A DNA stretch of 32,240 nucleotides from Candidatus Margulisiibacteriota bacterium (GTDB taxonomy: Bacteria; Margulisbacteria; WOR-1; O2-12-FULL-45-9; XYB2-FULL-48-7), in the NCBI GenBank assembly GCA_018822365.1, contig JAHJKL010000012.1:1-32240 (forward strand). The letters are read 5' to 3'. The notes beneath the pieces were generated by a model. The model was not told the DNA's origin and searched no databases. It saw nothing but the letters and a program-made list of their open reading frames with translations. The position numbers and the translations under genes were made by a program. Positions 195-8,180 of this stretch are shown piece by piece; within the stretch, counting starts at the first letter, position 1; the number at the start of each line of letters is the position of its first letter.

Positions 195-280
195 TATTGC
201 CTCCTCTTATTACAAGAAACTCCATCAACCCGGTACATACATTTATCGTAATATTATGGGGAAAACTTGCGGTTTTTGAT

Positions 281-313
281 AAAAAAAGCCCCCGGTTTTT
301 GGCCGGGGGCTTT
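281..313 (-). terminator. Intrinsic terminator of the left minus-strand gene train
   Basis: On the minus strand a perfect 8-bp stem (GCCCCCGG, 288-295, paired with 303-310) with a 7-nt loop is followed by seven T residues (281-287). It starts 24 nt after the stop of the 39-aa ORF, so it closes that transcript. Confidence 0.85.
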
Positions 314-334: not shown

Positions 335-454
335 CTAAATAAGCGAGCCTTTTTCTGTGTTAACCTCAACTTCTGCTATCCCTTCATCAGAAGAATCATT
401 TTTCCCAATAATGTCAATTGTCTCAAAATTAATTTCAATCTCATTTTTTTCCAT
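335..454 (-). CDS. 39-aa acidic small protein, unknown
   Basis: This ATG-to-TAG frame of 39 residues begins MEKNEIEINFETIDIIGKND and ends in KGSLI. An AGGAGG Shine-Dalgarno lies 8 nt upstream of the ATG, the best ribosome site in this gene train. The frame starts 33 nt after the stop of the 233-aa gene and ends 24 nt before the intrinsic terminator, so the transcript is neatly filled by it. It is strongly acidic, has no Cys, no signal peptide and no membrane segment. No leader/core pattern of a modified peptide is evident, and no family is recognised. It could be a small accessory or regulatory protein of the operon. That it is expressed is inferred from ribosome site and position only. Confidence 0.6.
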   Translation of the reverse strand: MEKNEIEINFETIDIIGKNDSSDEGIAEVEVNTEKGSLI

Positions 455-487
455 GTTAGCATCCTCCTGTTAAATATAATAAGCAAA

Positions 488-1189
488 TTATTGACGACGC
501 AGGTTTAAAGGACCTTGAACAGTAGTTGCGTTTTCTGACGGCGCGAATTGTAATTCGCTGATCGCCTTGGTTATTTCACTGGTTGCCATGGCTCTTTTTG
601 CCGGGGGTTGAAGTTCATTTGCATTGACACGAATACTATTCCTGTCAACGGTGCCGTTAGGCAAAATCCGAAAAGATATCGGGCAGTTGCCACTAACACC
701 TCCTCCTCTAAGCGGAGGTCTTGGGGTAGTCGCGAGATTAGCTAACCTGCTGGAATCACGAAGAGCGGCCGTTATTCCTTGACTATTTGCTTGCGGGAAA
801 GCGGTCAATGTCGTGGGGGCGATCGTCGCGCCTGCTTCATGAACCGGCGGTTGAGGTTGTGTTGCTGGTTGTCTGGCAGGCGCTCGGCCAGGTGGGGGTG
901 GTTCAAAGGCGGGTGTGTCAAATGGATTAAACTTTTCGTTTACAGTAACATTATAACCTCGACTAGCAAGGTCTTGGGCTAAGCCCCTTGCCGTATTAAA
1001 TGGAACCGATCCACTGCGAATTGAGCCATCCGGCGCGGTAATTGTTATTTTTACATTTGAAGGAACACCGGGGTCTTGTAAACCCCTCACAGATTGATTG
1101 TCAGCGTTAAAATATTGGATCGTTCCCCGGGTCGCTCTTGCTCCGTGTTGCGGAACTTGTCCTCGTCCGGCCGGTGGCACTCCATTCAT
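488..1189 (-). CDS. 233-aa proline-rich protein with TonB-C-like tail, unknown
   Basis: The ATG is preceded by AAGGAGGAG. There is no signal peptide. A Gly/Pro/Arg-rich start leads to a strand-rich segment (about residues 20-90, ending RGYNVTVN), then a Pro-rich linker (about 92-120, with PPPPGRAP), a central Thr/Ser/Ala segment and a C-terminal domain from about residue 165. The tail (ISFRILPNGTVDRNSIRVN, then a helix, then LQFAP and a closing strand) follows the pattern of TonB C-terminal domains: strand, pdGtV turn, strand, helix, FxP, strand. There is no TonB-type transmembrane anchor, so it is not an ordinary TonB. The last residues (LNLRRQ) resemble those of the 1285-aa protein (INIRQRQ). 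It sits between a Tiki-like lipoprotein gene and the 39-aa ORF. The domain assignment is tentative. Confidence 0.75.
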   Translation of the reverse strand: MNGVPPAGRGQVPQHGARATRGTIQYFNADNQSVRGLQDPGVPSNVKITITAPDGSIRSGSVPFNTARGLAQDLASRGYNVTVNEKFNPFDTPAFEPPPPGRAPARQPATQPQPPVHEAGATIAPTTLTAFPQANSQGITAALRDSSRLANLATTPRPPLRGGGVSGNCPISFRILPNGTVDRNSIRVNANELQPPAKRAMATSEITKAISELQFAPSENATTVQGPLNLRRQ

Positions 1190-1240
1190 AAAGACTCCTC
1201 CTTAAATTATGTCCATTTCTATGGATCAATTTACGAGAGT

Positions 1241-1269
1241 ATTTTGCTCCTTGATAAAAAAAAAGTCAA
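1241..1269 (-). promoter_or_regulatory. Candidate internal promoter before the 233-aa gene
   Basis: On the minus strand TTGACT (1264-1269) and CAAAAT (1241-1246) are separated by 17 nt. The predicted start lies about 45 nt before the ATG at 1189. The same two hexamers recur before the 229-aa gene at 2996-3023, which raises confidence slightly. Confidence 0.4.
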
Positions 1270-1282
1270 GAGGGTTTTAAGT

Positions 1283-2230
1283 TTAATCGCAAGTTGGAGA
1301 GGTGGTTGGGGAGAGGGGGAGCAAGGGAGCGGCGGGCAACGGGGTGATCATGACTGTTCGGCCGGGGAAGAACAGGGCGTTAACCGATCGGTCCGGCACC
1401 AAAAAACTAGATCCGCTTAACTGGAGGTAATAGGCAGTTTGGTTTGCGACAAGTGGGCCAAGATAAAGGTCGACCTCGTGATAGTTTTGAAGGCCGACGA
1501 TCTGCCTGATATTTTGGCCAAAACTCCTCATCTCCTCATTGGCGAGCGGTTCAATATTATTATGCTGGGTACCGGTATAAGAAATGACTTTTCTGCCGGC
1601 AGAATATAAAGACATGATCCTGGCTTGAGTTGTGGTATTGATATATTCGGCCCTTGCTTCAGGCGTATTGGCAAGAAAATCAGCGATACTCGGATAGTTA
1701 GATCCATAGATATTTATTGACGCTCCATTTTGCTGAAGTGAGCGGGCGGTTTCAAGAAAGCCGATAAAACCGCAATAATCAGGATGGTGATGGAGCCATC
1801 TAGATAACAGGGGCCCAAGCTCGCCGGAATTTAAATACTGCCGAATCTCATGATCGGCGGTTGGTCCGGAAGGGAGGAATTCGACGACAAAGTCCCGGTA
1901 GCCAGCCTGGACCAATTTGGGGAGAGCTTCTTTGGCAAAAAGGGACGCGGTGGAGACCAGAGTCGAGTAGTTTTTTTTATGGATCTCCCCGACCGCGATG
2001 ATCCGCGGCCTTTGGGCAATTATGGGATCAAACGCGGTCCCCAGATCAGGGTATTGGAGCAATTTAAATGATGGTGGAGCAGGGAGCGCGGTCGGAGCCA
2101 TTACGGTTGTGGTTGGAACGGGTTGCACTGTTCTGATAGGTGGACGCGCCGGAGCGCACCCGGCCAGCTTGACGGCGGCCGGCAACAGTATTAGAGGAAG
2201 AGATCGTCTTATAGTGTTAGCAATACCCAC
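1283..2230 (-). CDS. Tiki/TraB-fold-like lipoprotein (paralogue B)
   Basis: This 315-aa protein has a Sec-type signal ending in a lipobox (LAGC, Cys25), a Pro/Thr-rich spacer (26-55) and one globular domain. Two GX2H motifs, GEIH (81-84) and GTQH (220-223, followed by NN), are the signature of the Tiki/TraB/PrgY group, which is related to ChaN and erythromycin-esterase folds. Also shared with its paralogue at 3030-3947 are EFLPSG followed by D.EI..Y, YGSN, SFGQ and Y.EVD. In this superfamily the His and Glu residues bind metal or act in catalysis, and Tiki proteins are metal-dependent proteases. The substrate here is unknown. The likely location is lipid-anchored outside the cytoplasm. The start is GTG at 2230 with only a weak ribosome site (GAAGAG). 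The C-terminus is Pro/Thr-rich. Assignment rests on motifs and is moderate. Confidence 0.75.
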   Translation of the reverse strand: MGIANTIRRSLPLILLPAAVKLAGCAPARPPIRTVQPVPTTTVMAPTALPAPPSFKLLQYPDLGTAFDPIIAQRPRIIAVGEIHKKNYSTLVSTASLFAKEALPKLVQAGYRDFVVEFLPSGPTADHEIRQYLNSGELGPLLSRWLHHHPDYCGFIGFLETARSLQQNGASINIYGSNYPSIADFLANTPEARAEYINTTTQARIMSLYSAGRKVISYTGTQHNNIEPLANEEMRSFGQNIRQIVGLQNYHEVDLYLGPLVANQTAYYLQLSGSSFLVPDRSVNALFFPGRTVMITPLPAAPLLPLSPTTSPTCD

Positions 2231-2276
2231 GCTATCTCTTCGTGGGGTTTACCTGTAAATTTCAAGGAAAGTGGGT

Positions 2277-2966
2277 TTAGATCGTTCCTCCAGCCTGACT
2301 AGTTGCCGGTTGCAGGGCCAGATCGCTGGCTCTGCTGATCTGCGCTTCCATCCCGCCTCTGATATTACTGTCCTGGTAAACAAGGTCAAATCTTCCATTA
2401 CTTCTGGCGTAAGCCGTGACGGTTACCCCGGGTTTTCCGGCAACGCTATATTCATGGCGGACATTCCCTCCCTGACCGCGGGTATCAACCGTTCTTTGAT
2501 AGGTCAATTGATGGCTTTGGTTGCCGATCATAATGGTCGAGCAATTGCTGTTGATACTTATTTCATGGGTACTGTTTGGAGCGTAAAAACCAGCTGGTTG
2601 GATCATTTGTCCGCCGGTGGTGCCAGCGGTCCCGACCGATGTGCCGGTCGGCCCGGGCGGAAGGCCGGGGCCGGAAAAGGAAAAGGTAATTGATCTACGA
2701 TCATCCTGGCGATTGAAATCAATTTTAGCGGTTTGGTAATTGCTTATTAACGCCTCGGGTACCCCCTGCTGTCTTAAATAAGCGATAACCTGTGCCCGGC
2801 CTAACGTTTCCGCTTGGGCGTCACGAATTGACCTGGGAATTTCAAAAGTTATCTGGCCGCTGCTTAAGTCTCCTTTTACTCCCTTGGTTTCCCTTAGAGT
2901 AAGGACTGCTCCGGCTTGTGTCCGAGTCCCGCTGCCTGATGGCTGTTTTGGAATAGGTCCGACCAT
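2277..2966 (-). CDS. 229-aa hypothetical protein of the left gene train
   Basis: The ATG follows AAGGGGG. No signal peptide or membrane segment is visible. After a polar start, a strand-helix domain covers about residues 18-100 (VLTLRET, ITFEIPRS, then a helix ending AYLRQQGV, then ITFSFSG). A Pro/Gly/Thr linker (about 102-125) leads to a strand-rich C-terminal half that contains one Cys. The family is not recognised. The N-terminal part has the same strand, then helix with QGV/RGY, then strand order as the 233-aa protein, but identity is too low to call homology by eye. It is followed, 46 bp downstream, by Tiki-like lipoprotein B, and has its own candidate promoter. An extracellular role is suggested only by its neighbours and composition. 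Confidence 0.7.
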   Translation of the reverse strand: MVGPIPKQPSGSGTRTQAGAVLTLRETKGVKGDLSSGQITFEIPRSIRDAQAETLGRAQVIAYLRQQGVPEALISNYQTAKIDFNRQDDRRSITFSFSGPGLPPGPTGTSVGTAGTTGGQMIQPAGFYAPNSTHEISINSNCSTIMIGNQSHQLTYQRTVDTRGQGGNVRHEYSVAGKPGVTVTAYARSNGRFDLVYQDSNIRGGMEAQISRASDLALQPATSQAGGTI

Positions 2967-2995
2967 AATTATTCCCCCTTTATTGATTTGACTTT

Positions 2996-3023
2996 ATTTT
3001 GCCACAGAAAACAGATAAGTCAA
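2996..3023 (-). promoter_or_regulatory. Candidate internal promoter before the 229-aa gene
   Basis: Minus-strand TTGACT (3018-3023) and CAAAAT (2996-3001) are spaced by 16 nt, in the 63-bp gap between two genes of the train. It matches the pair at 1241-1269. Confidence 0.4.
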
Positions 3024-3029
3024 CAGTGA

Positions 3030-3947
3030 TTAGCGGCAGGATGGGGGAGTAGCTGTCCTAGGTAGAATAATGGTCACCCGGTTTTCTCGCTTAAGGAGCG
3101 CAACCCCGGTTTCGGGGATAGACCGGCCAATCTCTTCACTTAAATATCTTCCAGGGACAGTTGGCAGGAGACTGGTCAGCAAAATATCGACCTCCAGATA
3201 GTTGTTGGCCGGGAAGAGCTGGCCAAAACTATGCGATTCTTCTCCGGTGAGGGGGATAGTATTGTTGTGACGGGCCCCATTGTAAGCAGTGATCTGATTG
3301 GTTGGGTTTTGGCTTCTTAAAATTTCTATTACATCGAGAGTGTTCTGATTGACGCGGGATGAGAGATCATCTTCTCGTCCCGCTCCCCGCAACGCCAAAT
3401 ATTCCTCCGGGGAGCTGATATTAGTGCCGTAAAGGGTGATCCCGTTCTCGGCTGCTGCTTCCAGCATTCTCATTGTCCCTCGGCAGTCCGGGTACATTAC
3501 CTCTTTAAGCCAGCGGTCCAGCAAAGAACCGGGCCTAATAGTTCTGTTCCGATTGTAATCGGCAATTTCCAGGTCGCTTTGCCGGCCAAATGGTAGGAGC
3601 TCGGTCGCCAGGCTTTCCCGTCCATATCGCTTCATAATGGGGAATAGGACCGCGAAGGTCTGCTCGGCGGTTGAAGGGGTGCTGGTTTGATCAAACTGGT
3701 GGATCTCTCCCAGGGCGATGATCGGGGTCCTGGTCGCCATGACCGCGTCGAGCGCCGAGGCGAGCGAAGGATAATGACCGGGGGTGATTTTGGGAGGGGG
3801 AGGCGCGGAGTAGGTGACGGTGACAATGGTTATATCGGGTTTGATTGGGGGTGTTACTGGTCTTCTAAGAGGGGGAGCGCAGGCGGCAGTTAACGTCGCC
3901 ATTGAGCCAAATAGGAACGACCTTCTTGAAAGTTGAGTGATAACCAC
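3030..3947 (-). CDS. Tiki/TraB-fold-like Tat lipoprotein (paralogue A)
   Basis: This 305-aa paralogue of the protein at 1283-2230 has an N-terminus with a twin-arginine motif (SRRSFLFG) and a lipobox ending in Cys23 (TAAC), suggesting Tat export and lipidation. A Pro-rich spacer is followed by a domain with two GX2H motifs, GEIH (80-83) and GARH (224-227, then NN). It also has ELLPFG with D.EI.DY after it, YGTN, SFGQ and YLEVDILL, all aligned with the paralogue. The family role is metal-dependent hydrolysis or metal/heme binding in the Tiki/TraB/ChaN group; the substrate is unknown. Tat use would fit a cofactor or metal loaded before export. The start is GTG with a poor ribosome site. It lies 73 bp after the giant EF-hand gene. 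Its paralogue uses Sec, so the two differ in route. Confidence 0.77.
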   Translation of the reverse strand: MVITQLSRRSFLFGSMATLTAACAPPLRRPVTPPIKPDITIVTVTYSAPPPPKITPGHYPSLASALDAVMATRTPIIALGEIHQFDQTSTPSTAEQTFAVLFPIMKRYGRESLATELLPFGRQSDLEIADYNRNRTIRPGSLLDRWLKEVMYPDCRGTMRMLEAAAENGITLYGTNISSPEEYLALRGAGREDDLSSRVNQNTLDVIEILRSQNPTNQITAYNGARHNNTIPLTGEESHSFGQLFPANNYLEVDILLTSLLPTVPGRYLSEEIGRSIPETGVALLKRENRVTIILPRTATPPSCR

Positions 3948-4020
3948 GAAACTACTTCGAAAGAGCGGGGAGGGAATTTCAGGTAAAACCGCTAATAATT
4001 AATGTATTTGGATAATGGAC

Positions 4021-7000
4021 TTATTGTTGGCGTTGCCGAATGTTTATTTGCATCGTAACCTCTCTTGTTGGGGTAAGGAATGGCGTAAGCCTGGGTGGAT
4101 TAGAGATTGGCGGATCAGAGGTCATTGTCCCGTCTGGCCTGAAAGTTAGGGAATATTGGCCGCTAATGCCGGAACTTCGAAATAATTGCTTGATGGAACT
4201 ATCAGAAGTTCTGATCCTTTCATTCCATGCAGTTCTTGCGGTAGTGTTATAGGAAAGGGTGATCCCTTGAGGAGTAACCTGGAAGGCTTCACCTGGGATT
4301 AATCCACTGGGGGCAAGAGCGATGCCGCTTAAAATTGATCTTGGCGAATTTCCGCCTGCGGAACTTACGGTTGATGGAGGATTGAATCGATCAGCGTTTA
4401 AAATGCGTTCAGTAGCCTGAAATTGGGTTATCCTGCCGTTGCTTCCCAATACAGCGGTAATACCGGGAGGGACATAAACACTTTGTCTATTAACTGAACA
4501 GATCAACCCGTTGCCGCCAGGGATTATCGAATCAACTTTTTGAGGAGTAGAGGTTGTAAAATGAATTTCTCCGGATGGCGATGAAGCCAGAATCGTTACA
4601 TCGCCGACCGTCAAAGGACCATCTACCCTGGCATGGGTTGGTCGTTGGTTTGCTCCGCTACCAGTGAAATCAACAACTGTTCCTGCCGGTAAATTAACTC
4701 CGGCTATCGTAGCTGGCGCGGCAAGTTTAACTGATTGGATGTTTTCCGGCAAAGCGCCGGTGAAAGTTGGCCTGACCGTTATTTGATAATTAACATTACC
4801 CAGGCGCGCGGTCATGGTTTTTTCCTGTCGTGGCCCCTGGACCAATAAGCCGCCCTGGTTCAAGACTGGGGAGGCGAGCCTGGTAAATGCGCCCGATTGA
4901 GGATTTATATGCCCGATTAACTGGCTATTGCTATTTACCACTGCCATCATACCGGCCGGAACATGGGGGGTTGCGGTCGCTAACGGTTCTGTTATATGAA
5001 AATCAACAGAGGGGCCGTATTGGCCTTGATGACTAATTGTGATAAATCTATTGTATCCCGCCTGGGAAGATGAATAGCCGGTTGGAAGGACGACGTTGTT
5101 ATTGCGGTCTATGGTTACCTGAAGAGTTCTTGCTTCCCAGGGATTACCAAAGTTTATGGTTGAAGTAACAGTGCCAGGGAGGCTGGTTGTTGGGGTAGTT
5201 GGTGGCGCTACCGCAGTTGTCCGCGTGGGACGAGTTGTTGTTCGAGTGACAACGATCGGCTGGACCACTGGCGCCGCTGGTTGGGTGACCCTGGCTGGTG
5301 GCGGCGGCAATTGAGCGGTGGCATAAGGAGCCGTTGCCGTTTTGTTAGTCGGATTATATTCCGCTAAGGCGACATTTCTTCCGGTAGTCGTAACCTGATA
5401 AAACTTGCGGTCATTTAAATTATAGTATAAACCATCGGCAATTCTGGTCGCTAACGCGCTATCGGGGCGGCGATGAATAATGCTGACATTAACAAGTTCT
5501 TTTTGGCCGTTATTATTAACGACGGCAAATTCCTGGCCGCCGGCGACCCTAATAACGGAACCGGTCGTTAATCCGGCAAGGACGGCTCCCTGTGGTTTGC
5601 TTGAATAGACAGTGACCCCTTCAGAATCGGTCGTCGGCCCGGCTGGTGGCGGCGGTTGTTGGGCGACAACGGTTGGTGGCGCCGCCTGGCCGGGTTGTAA
5701 GAGGGCGGGTGTTAACGTATCGATCAGCGCGTCATTTCCGGCAAAAGTATAAGTCGAAGTCCCTCTGGTTATGCTTACAACCTTGCCGGATTCAATTGTC
5801 ACCTTGTCGCCAGGTAGGACATTGTAAACCGCGACTTTGTTTTGTGCGTTGTAGACCAGGATCCGGCCTTGAGCGGTGACATTGTGGGTTCCATTGGGAG
5901 GAGGGGTTTGACTGTCAATCAAACCTCTGCTGGTATTTACTGTTTGGCTGGCAAAGGTTAATCCAGGAGGGAGCGATGATGCACCCGGGCGAACGGGAAT
6001 AGTCGCGTCTTCCCTTGTGGCTGGCGCAAAAACAGCGCGAGTGGCGGCGGTATTAAATTGCGTTGTGGCAGTGGTGCTGCCCATATGGGTCGGTTGACCG
6101 CTGGCATTAAAATAAAGGCTTTCTCCTGCCCGGAGAGTGTAGATTTTTAGTCCGCTATCTTCCTGGACGGTGAAAGTCATGGTCGAGGAACTGTTGGCAG
6201 GCAGGCGGATCGAGCGGACTGCGCCATTGTCCCGAGTGATGACCGCACCATTGGGGACTAAATATTGTTTATTACTAATTGTTTCGATGTGATTGTTTCT
6301 GATTGTCGATCTAACAGAGGCGATTGCTCTTCCTAGAATAGTCTCAGCTCCACTTCTAACCATCGTGAGCAGATTTGGCCTTGTGTCGCTGGTTCCGGAA
6401 AAAATAACTCTTCCGCTGTTGCGGCCGCTGGGAGCCGGTCCCGCGTAATATTCCTGATCGCCGTAGTAATGTATTTGATTGTTGATTCTGGCAAATAAAA
6501 CTCGAGTGCCCAGCATAACAACCGATGCCCCTTTGGGGATTTCTTCTCCCGTTGGGTTACCCGCTTTGTCGTATACTTGCATCGGGCTACTTAAATTGTC
6601 AAATCTGTTCTGGCTAATACCGGTTGTTCTGCCTTCATTGTTATCCACAACAAATTGATTTGAGCTATAAACCAGGATGCGTCCAGCGCCAATAATCTCA
6701 TGCCCGCTGGAAATGATCCTGTTATGGTATATAGAATGAGATGCCTCTCTATTTAACAGTGGCTGTTTGATGTCAATAGGGATCACTCCATTAGTTGGGT
6801 TTGCGGTAATAATAATTCCGCGCGGCAGGCGTGGGGTTGGTGGAGCTGATGGAATTGCGGTTGGAATAGTAGCCTGCGGGCCACGCCTGATTAAGATTGC
6901 GTTTCCGGAGAAGACCGGCTCGCCGTTTCCGCTGGTTGGGTGGATTTCGACTCCTTGAGGCAGGCGACCGCCGACAACGTTCCATCTGACTTGTAACATT

Positions 7001-7878
7001 TGGGAGACGGAAGTGTTTGGTGTCGACGGCAGGTTGTTTGTTTCTACAACAACAGCGCTGGTAATTCCTTGGTGACTAAATACTAATAAACGCTGGTTGT
7101 CTTTTAACTCAATTCGATCGGCTAAAACTCTGGAAACTTGGGGATTACTGGCATAAATACCATTAGATAATATTGAAAGGGCCTGCTGGCCGTTTAATTG
7201 GTCGGAGAGGAAAATAACGACGCGAGGATCTACCGGGATGATATGAGCGATTTTGTCTGGTAAATTTTGAGCGGTTATTTCACCCGATAAGATTTGATTT
7301 AATCCATTGGAAGTAAAATTGCCGGGATCTTGGCCGCTGACGGATTGATAACGTTCTTTTACCCTCGCTTCTAGCGCGCTTCTAAGGGCCGGCTGGCTGT
7401 CAATGGCGGCTTTGTTCCGTTGATAAACAGCGATAAGATCGGCAGATGACCAGGCATCGCGAATTTGGGATAGGGGCCGTTCAAAAGCTTCGTATTCCTG
7501 GCGGATTGCCGTGACTGCTGGATTTGGTTGATTGCCGGAAATCTCGTTGTATCCGCGCAAGGCGGTTTCAACTTTTGTTTGATTTTCAGTGGTGGGGTTT
7601 GCTTTATAAGCGTCAACTGCCTGTTTGTAAGCGATGATTTTAGCGTCTATGGCTGGCTTTAACCCGGCAACTTCAAGTTCGGATATACTGATCGAGGAGG
7701 CATCATCTCCTAATGGGGCTATTTGATTGAAATCTGAAGAAGTTATTTCATCGGTGTCAGTGGCACATTCTGCGTTTGTTCGAACAACTTCGTCGCGAGT
7801 GATTTTGCCGTCATTGTTTTTATCGTATTTATTGAAAACTCGATTTAAATCCCCGGCATTGTTTATTCCGTTAACCAT
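4021..7878 (-). CDS. 1285-aa EF-hand protein with proline/threonine-rich linkers
   Basis: The ATG follows AAAGGGGGC. The N-terminus carries one canonical EF-hand calcium loop (DKNNDGKITRDE, about residues 20-31), with an acidic helix pair after it that may be a degenerate second hand. The rest is a long, strand-rich, Asn/Thr/Ser-rich chain broken by proline linkers (about 340-350, 740-750, 860-920). A phrase GRILVY recurs in two places (GAGRILVYSS and AQGRILVYNA), suggesting duplicated strand modules. The C-terminus (YSLTFRPDGTM, then INIRQRQ) looks like the TonB-C-like tail of the 233-aa protein. Composition is typical of large surface or matrix proteins, but no signal peptide is present, so export is unexplained. 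It is first in the gene train. No named family is recognised beyond the EF-hand. Confidence 0.8.
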   Translation of the reverse strand: MVNGINNAGDLNRVFNKYDKNNDGKITRDEVVRTNAECATDTDEITSSDFNQIAPLGDDASSISISELEVAGLKPAIDAKIIAYKQAVDAYKANPTTENQTKVETALRGYNEISGNQPNPAVTAIRQEYEAFERPLSQIRDAWSSADLIAVYQRNKAAIDSQPALRSALEARVKERYQSVSGQDPGNFTSNGLNQILSGEITAQNLPDKIAHIIPVDPRVVIFLSDQLNGQQALSILSNGIYASNPQVSRVLADRIELKDNQRLLVFSHQGITSAVVVETNNLPSTPNTSVSQMLQVRWNVVGGRLPQGVEIHPTSGNGEPVFSGNAILIRRGPQATIPTAIPSAPPTPRLPRGIIITANPTNGVIPIDIKQPLLNREASHSIYHNRIISSGHEIIGAGRILVYSSNQFVVDNNEGRTTGISQNRFDNLSSPMQVYDKAGNPTGEEIPKGASVVMLGTRVLFARINNQIHYYGDQEYYAGPAPSGRNSGRVIFSGTSDTRPNLLTMVRSGAETILGRAIASVRSTIRNNHIETISNKQYLVPNGAVITRDNGAVRSIRLPANSSSTMTFTVQEDSGLKIYTLRAGESLYFNASGQPTHMGSTTATTQFNTAATRAVFAPATREDATIPVRPGASSLPPGLTFASQTVNTSRGLIDSQTPPPNGTHNVTAQGRILVYNAQNKVAVYNVLPGDKVTIESGKVVSITRGTSTYTFAGNDALIDTLTPALLQPGQAAPPTVVAQQPPPPAGPTTDSEGVTVYSSKPQGAVLAGLTTGSVIRVAGGQEFAVVNNNGQKELVNVSIIHRRPDSALATRIADGLYYNLNDRKFYQVTTTGRNVALAEYNPTNKTATAPYATAQLPPPPARVTQPAAPVVQPIVVTRTTTRPTRTTAVAPPTTPTTSLPGTVTSTINFGNPWEARTLQVTIDRNNNVVLPTGYSSSQAGYNRFITISHQGQYGPSVDFHITEPLATATPHVPAGMMAVVNSNSQLIGHINPQSGAFTRLASPVLNQGGLLVQGPRQEKTMTARLGNVNYQITVRPTFTGALPENIQSVKLAAPATIAGVNLPAGTVVDFTGSGANQRPTHARVDGPLTVGDVTILASSPSGEIHFTTSTPQKVDSIIPGGNGLICSVNRQSVYVPPGITAVLGSNGRITQFQATERILNADRFNPPSTVSSAGGNSPRSILSGIALAPSGLIPGEAFQVTPQGITLSYNTTARTAWNERIRTSDSSIKQLFRSSGISGQYSLTFRPDGTMTSDPPISNPPRLTPFLTPTREVTMQINIRQRQQ

Positions 7879-7924: not shown

Positions 7925-8180
7925 CTGTTATTTGGCATAGAAACGACAAAAATAACCGATCAGTAACAGGCTAACTGAAGGGTCATTTGGATGACTCTCA
8001 TAAGTATTATCGTTAATTGAGGGGGGGAACTTGCATAAATACGAGAAATAGTCTTGACAGCTATAGGGAAATATGATCCAGCTTTTTTTAAGATTAATAC
8101 TTTTCATAAAGCTTCTTATGGGCCGTTGTCTGGAATGGTACAACTTTGGGGGTAGAAGCGCAATGGGGAGGTCTTGTAAC

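Follow-up and report, generated by a model that had tools for sequence, protein, structure and literature searches.

A sigma28-type promoter shared by the partner genes of TIKI-superfamily lipoproteins and by appendage-like genes in the Saganbacteria (WOR-1)

Flagellum-related export apparatuses that have shed motility parts are known from the filament-less basal bodies of Buchnera (PMC8109811) and from the 'Myxo' type III secretion system (T3SS) intermediates of Myxococcales (PMC3459982). The flagellar sigma factor of E. coli, sigma28 (FliA), has the promoter consensus TAAAGTTT-n11-GCCGATAA (PMC2859248). Work on RRSP, the Ras/Rap1 endopeptidase, has defined the 2His/2Glu residues of TIKI enzymes and has established that TIKI proteins can act as site-specific proteases (PMC6254334). 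Here we describe an operon of the class Saganbacteria (WOR-1) that appears to bring these three themes together. It lies on contig JAHJKL010000012.1 (assembly GCA_018822365.1), which in its entirety, 32,240 bases, constitutes the window analysed and belongs to a genome of 1.68 Mb (G000). The operon codes for an EF-hand protein of 1285 amino acids (aa), two predicted TIKI-superfamily lipoproteins (LipA and LipB) and two signal-less proteins of 229 and 233 aa (u229 and u233). Genome-wide analyses were run on the complete genome of the same genus, G001 (WOR-1 bacterium RIFOXYB2_FULL_45_9, record MEUD01000001.1). The new observation is the promoter, which is shared by the partners of TIKI genes and by appendage-like genes of a filament-less export apparatus. 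Searches of the open-access literature gave no account of such a system for this bacterial group.

The six minus-strand open reading frames (ORFs) listed in the initial annotation were all recovered at the positions given there, and a terminator-like hairpin lies behind them at 313-285. The transcription unit also reaches beyond the coordinates of that annotation, back to a promoter at 8007-8033. The features, all on the minus strand, are as follows.

8007..8033 (-): sigma28 (FliA)-type promoter CAAGTT-N15-CGATAA; exact match, 129 bp upstream of the 1285-aa gene, with box and distance identical in G001
4021..7878 (-): signal-less EF-hand protein of 1285 aa, candidate export substrate (ORF, Pfam, composition, alignment to G001)
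3030..3947 (-): LipA, predicted TIKI-superfamily lipoprotein with Tat-like signal, lipobox TAAC and residues E81, H83, E116 and H227 (model, Foldseek, residues)
2996..3023 (-): sigma70-like promoter candidate before u229; consensus match only, of a class not above chance
2277..2966 (-): u229, signal-less with a Gly/Pro-rich N-terminus, candidate export substrate (ORF, composition)
1283..2230 (-): LipB, predicted TIKI-superfamily lipoprotein with lipobox LAGC and all four catalytic residues (paralogy to LipA, residue alignment)
1241..1269 (-): sigma70-like promoter candidate before u233; consensus match only
488..1189 (-): u233, signal-less and Pro-rich with a weakly TonB-C/AgmX-like C-terminus, candidate export substrate (composition, weak profile match)
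335..454 (-): acidic ORF of 39 aa with an AGGAGG ribosome site (ORF and sequence)
285..313 (-): intrinsic terminator-like hairpin of 11 pairs, 8 of them G-C, which ends the unit (sequence)
243..269 (-): second sigma28-type promoter, an exact match, pointing off the contig end
3..194 (-): 5' portion of a signal-less gene with a TTG start and a AGAGGAGG site, continuing on contig C78

The motif CAAGTT-N15-CGATAA was recognised while scanning the upstream regions of G001 and of the window for a sigma28 site. Two exact copies were present in the window, against an expectation of 0.15 matches when one mismatch is tolerated. In G001, nine sites showed the 15-base spacing and the remaining spacings between 8 and 23 accounted for two together; seven of the nine were intergenic and stood before genes, namely a PorV-like gene, a small-protein operon (two sites), a kinase gene, the gene of a 3068-aa protein, a 133-aa gene and the EF gene. 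The motif was found in all 32 genomes searched, with about 242 sites (summed from the table) versus 5 for a reversed-pattern control. Flanking bases outside the search pattern were conserved as well, with a G preceding CAAGTT in 86% of 95 sites, a set that leans on sites of our own choosing.

At TIKI loci, the motif lay within 130 bp upstream, with at most one mismatch, of 13 of the 17 TIKI-partner genes and of 4 of the 261 other genes of the same loci (Fisher p = 7e-16), and these four likewise code for signal-less proteins. Most partners had been selected from their gene position prior to recognition of the motif, and the final partner list was written afterwards; since the motif was discovered on regions of G001 and of the window, those cases are not independent, while the other genomes are. 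Sites were also identified among export apparatus genes: an exact one stands 77 bp before flgF in genome G028, and, by coordinates, sites precede the gene run from a hook-like gene to flhA in G010 and G015. We consider it very probable that the window operon belongs to a FliA-type promoter network, whose motif we infer to be the target of the FliA/WhiG-type sigma factor, the gene of which lies in the rod operon (see below).

In order to describe what this network encodes, 72 distinct sites were surveyed with automatic choice of starts. An ORF was found close downstream of 67, and 62 of these 67 proteins had no hydrophobic N-terminus, a feature present in 29% of the G001 proteome (p = 1.6e-5 for the deficit). 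Members of the network include a kinase and, encoded directly after the window operon, a protein with a calcineurin-like phosphoesterase domain. The domain was read on contig C78, which overlaps the window start (98.8% over 328 bases) and extends the gene at 3-194 to a frame of 483 aa.

The EF protein, u229 and u233 carry no Sec or Tat signal, and a hydrophobic N-terminus is absent from all three, in agreement with the initial annotation, which had described the interleaved proteins as signal-less and surface-like by composition. Enrichment in P, T, N, Q, S and G over K, E and L placed u233, u229 and the EF protein 5.3, 5.2 and 4.6 standard deviations (SD), respectively, above a baseline of 504 signal-less soluble proteins of G001. 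Pfam and NCBIfam searches with the six proteins of the operon assigned nothing besides an EF-hand and a weak tail match in u233. More specifically, the EF protein has a single EF-hand near its N-terminal end (1.3e-5, slightly short of the curated cut-off), and the TonB C-terminal/AgmX profile matched u233 weakly and far under its cut-off (0.075 with the whole protein, 0.008 with the C-terminus alone). Alignment of the EF protein with its G001 counterpart gave two blocks at 76-85% identity, an N-terminus at 46% and little between, a mosaic in keeping with rapid change in a surface or effector protein. No sequence homologue of u233 was detected in 94 other genomes. Homology between the EF protein C-terminus and u233 is not claimed (hhalign probability 14%), and BLAST gave none between u233 and the partner at locus L021. 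The EF-hand is not a general tag of signal-less proteins, a strict loop being present in only one other G001 protein, and an AlphaFold model covering the EF protein's conserved C-terminal region (pLDDT 40) was not used. In G001, a short tandem repeat coding GQGDT units lies between the EF gene and a helicase gene (L024:14693-15088).

LipA and LipB are paralogues (32-35% identity) with Tat/Sec-like N-termini followed by lipoboxes, so that the export signals noted in the initial annotation stand. Its Tiki-like identification is also borne out by a structure model built from 19 homologues (pLDDT 87.5, pTM 0.80). Foldseek comparison of the model with the PDB returned HopBA1 (1.6e-7), RRSP (3e-5), ChaN (5e-4), PMT (5e-4) and EreC (4e-3), and its 13 matches at E<=1e-3 were TIKI or Ere-like members. 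The 2His/2Glu set is present in both proteins, and among the 19 homologues E116 is kept in all and H83 in 18. Neither protein has a Pfam match, and the 19-homologue profile reached PMT and RRSP chains at only 0.004-0.006. Based on this confident model and the residues, LipA and LipB are predicted to be hydrolases of the TIKI/EreA/ChaN superfamily; the likeness to toxin domains does not go beyond the fold.

Homologues of the TIKI lipoproteins were found in 13 of the 95 genomes searched, all inside the class at E<=0.01. Judging from gene order, the conserved unit of the class is one TIKI gene adjoining a signal-less gene. The pairing proposed in the initial annotation does recur across the class in this form, with partners that belong to several unrelated families and lie in every orientation. 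Its regular double alternation is local to the present genome, since G001 has a single EF-LipA-u229 module and u233 has no homologue in the other genomes. A mobile or phage origin of the cluster was considered and rejected, no match being found in viral contigs or phage records. Several neighbourhoods are recorded here in their own right. In three genomes of the same family (L029, L035 and L036), the TIKI gene lies about 7 kb or less from the flgF/flgG operon with helicase and RmuC-like genes between, and a TIKI-helicase neighbourhood is common to much of the class. Near a TIKI gene, a sigma28-type site accompanies a signal-less protein of DUF4116 repeats that matches a caspase-like domain weakly (9.7e-4; L033:12397-13905).

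The genome of the window codes for a flagellar export apparatus on two contigs. Contig C13 carries the genes of FlgF, FlgG, FlgA, FlgH, FlgI, the FliA/WhiG-type sigma factor, FlgB, FlgC, FliE, FliF, FliG, FliH and FliI, and contig C52 those of a FliK/YscP-like protein, a short FlgE/G-like protein, FliM/N, FliOPQR, FlhB and FlhA. FlgA, FlgI, FliH, FliN, FliOPQR and FlhB were named from sequence and gene order, the others by profile matches in this genome or in G001. G001 has FliE, FliF, FliI, FlgB, FlgC, FlgH, FliK-like and FliM-like genes, FlgH being a ring component in whose place injectisomes, the non-flagellar T3SS, have a secretin; FlhA was found in 36 of 38 genomes and rod genes in 31 of 32, and the L/P rings, the FliA/WhiG sigma factor and a FliG without motor domain in the closest two genomes. 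The FliA_WhiG profile was the best of all sigma models on the rod-operon sigma gene (4e-41), a score below its own curated cut-off. FliG consists of its N-terminal and middle domains and lacks the C-terminal motor domain in the two genomes tested (159 aa; L072:15419-15898 and L151:18383-18862). The class yielded no Flagellin_N, no MotB_plug and no FliD_N match over the cut-off; controls were positive, as were genomes elsewhere in the phylum.

Further genes behind sigma28-type sites are as follows. A conserved run of small signal-less proteins (91, 101, 707, 185 and 127 aa), which also includes a glycosyltransferase-like gene and a 521-aa gene, occupies G001 184753-200474 (L053:4753-20000, L054:55-474) and recurs at L142-L147; it is possible that this run is an appendage of the export machine. 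A role as needle subunits was considered for the 91-aa and 81-aa proteins, but no family match was found. Within the same region, a signal-less protein of 1733 aa matches FliD_N below the threshold, close to its end (7.8e-4; G001 187350-192551, L053:7350-12551). A family of about 430 aa, which opens with a conserved GGGVHPGKPIIWPTGK stretch, occurs in four genomes, in three of them with a sigma28-type site upstream (L150:2464-3753; L153:17837-19129; L216; G001 1596537-1597826). Lastly, two families of small signal-less proteins (64-73 aa and about 92 aa) turned up repeatedly in several genomes, immediately downstream of the promoter (L203, L205, L214, L218, L222 and L230; L171, L194 and L233).

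Taking the gene anatomy, the fold and catalytic residues of the TIKI proteins, the motif seen throughout the class, its association with TIKI partners, the apparatus and the missing flagellin, cap and MotB as read from sequence, we lean towards the view that the window holds a late-gene operon of a filament-less flagellar T3SS, made of candidate substrates and TIKI envelope hydrolases, export included. Transcription would start at the promoter recognised by the rod-operon sigma factor. The EF protein, u229 and u233 would leave the cell not by Sec but via the FlhAB-FliPQR/FliHIJ apparatus, the rod and the L/P rings, and LipA and LipB, exported by Tat or Sec, would reside in the envelope as hydrolases acting on the co-encoded proteins or on the targets of those proteins. 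The secretion system itself would be flagellum-derived, motor-less, filament-less and conserved across the Saganbacteria. Both the export of the partners by the flagellar machine and the cleavage targets of the TIKI enzymes are what we infer, and action of these enzymes on the proteins encoded next to them is put forward as a tentative suggestion only. Several findings weigh against this proposal. Two of the eight -35 positions deviate from the E. coli consensus, and the spacer has one additional base; the motif is missing immediately ahead of u229 and u233, which would rely on read-through or on the weak sigma70-like candidates; no recognised export domain was found in any partner protein. 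In addition, a catalytic residue has been lost or a lipoprotein signal is not recognisable in several TIKI relatives, and the TIKI gene is inside the sigma28 unit in some genomes only, lying elsewhere upstream of its partner or convergent with it.

The best surviving alternative, which we nonetheless regard as unlikely, is an envelope maturation pair, in which the partners are cell-surface proteins, each TIKI lipoprotein is a protease that processes its neighbour, the shared promoter merely co-regulates them and the export route is irrelevant. TIKI genes do flank a signal-less gene in most loci, the four catalytic residues are conserved in both window lipoproteins and RRSP provides a precedent for a site-specific TIKI protease (PMC6254334), but partners at different loci are not homologous, an unexpected situation for a dedicated protease-substrate pair, catalytic residues have been lost in some TIKI copies, and several relatives without a recognisable signal may be cytoplasmic. 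Somewhat less probable still is a reading in which the sigma28-type genes furnish the rod with a static surface appendage or a coat of adhesins, with the EF protein, u229 and u233 as decorations rather than secreted effectors. The signal-less protein kinase and calcineurin-like phosphatase of the regulon fit such a coat poorly, as do partners that differ widely between genomes in a more effector-like manner, even though the operon of small signal-less proteins with its 707-aa member stands behind the same promoter in many genomes, the FliK-like protein resembles the needle-length protein YscP (7e-9) and the 1733-aa neighbour has its weak FliD_N match. FliA/WhiG family members can control other processes in non-motile bacteria, and the partners have no Sec signal, but cytoplasmic proteins of coincidental composition under an unrelated WhiG-type regulon are improbable given a composition 4.6-5.3 SD off the signal-less proteins of G001 and the sites before flgF and before the appendage-like operon.

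With the filament-less secretion system again as the preferred reading, the promoter offers a means of cataloguing, from the DNA sequence only, which proteins a deep-branching uncultured class probably exports, by locating the motif and reading the next gene. The TIKI superfamily, whose bacterial roles are mostly unknown, gains genetic partners and hence candidate substrates. Whether the class as a whole turned its flagellum into a filament-free secretion machine, with the flagellar sigma factor driving a large and variable exported set (kinase, phosphatase, TIKI-paired proteins), seems to us an evenly balanced question; if true, a flagellum would have been recast for secretion class-wide with rod, rings and sigma factor retained, a stage relevant to the origins of injectisomes.

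Compared with known members of the TIKI/EreA/ChaN superfamily (RRSP, EreC, ChaN, HopBA1 and the PMT C2 domain), LipA and LipB share the predicted fold and the 2His/2Glu set but are lipoprotein-anchored, without Pfam or NCBIfam match, and genetically tied to sigma28-driven signal-less genes. Like the flagellar class-3 (sigma28/FliA) regulon, the present network has a FliA/WhiG sigma gene, here in the rod operon, and a promoter that resembles the E. coli consensus, whereas it has no flagellin, its -35 box reads GCAAGTTT and its spacer is longer by the one base noted above. The basal bodies of Buchnera likewise retain export gate and rod and have lost flagellin and motor (PMC8109811); in the Saganbacteria, however, the condition extends over a whole class with genomes of 1.1-2.2 Mb and is accompanied by a regulon of the FliA type that comprises many signal-less genes. 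The 'Myxo' T3SS intermediates similarly combine a flagellum-related export apparatus with the absence of motility parts, but they are without the FlgBC, FliE and FlgH (PMC3459982) that G001 retains.
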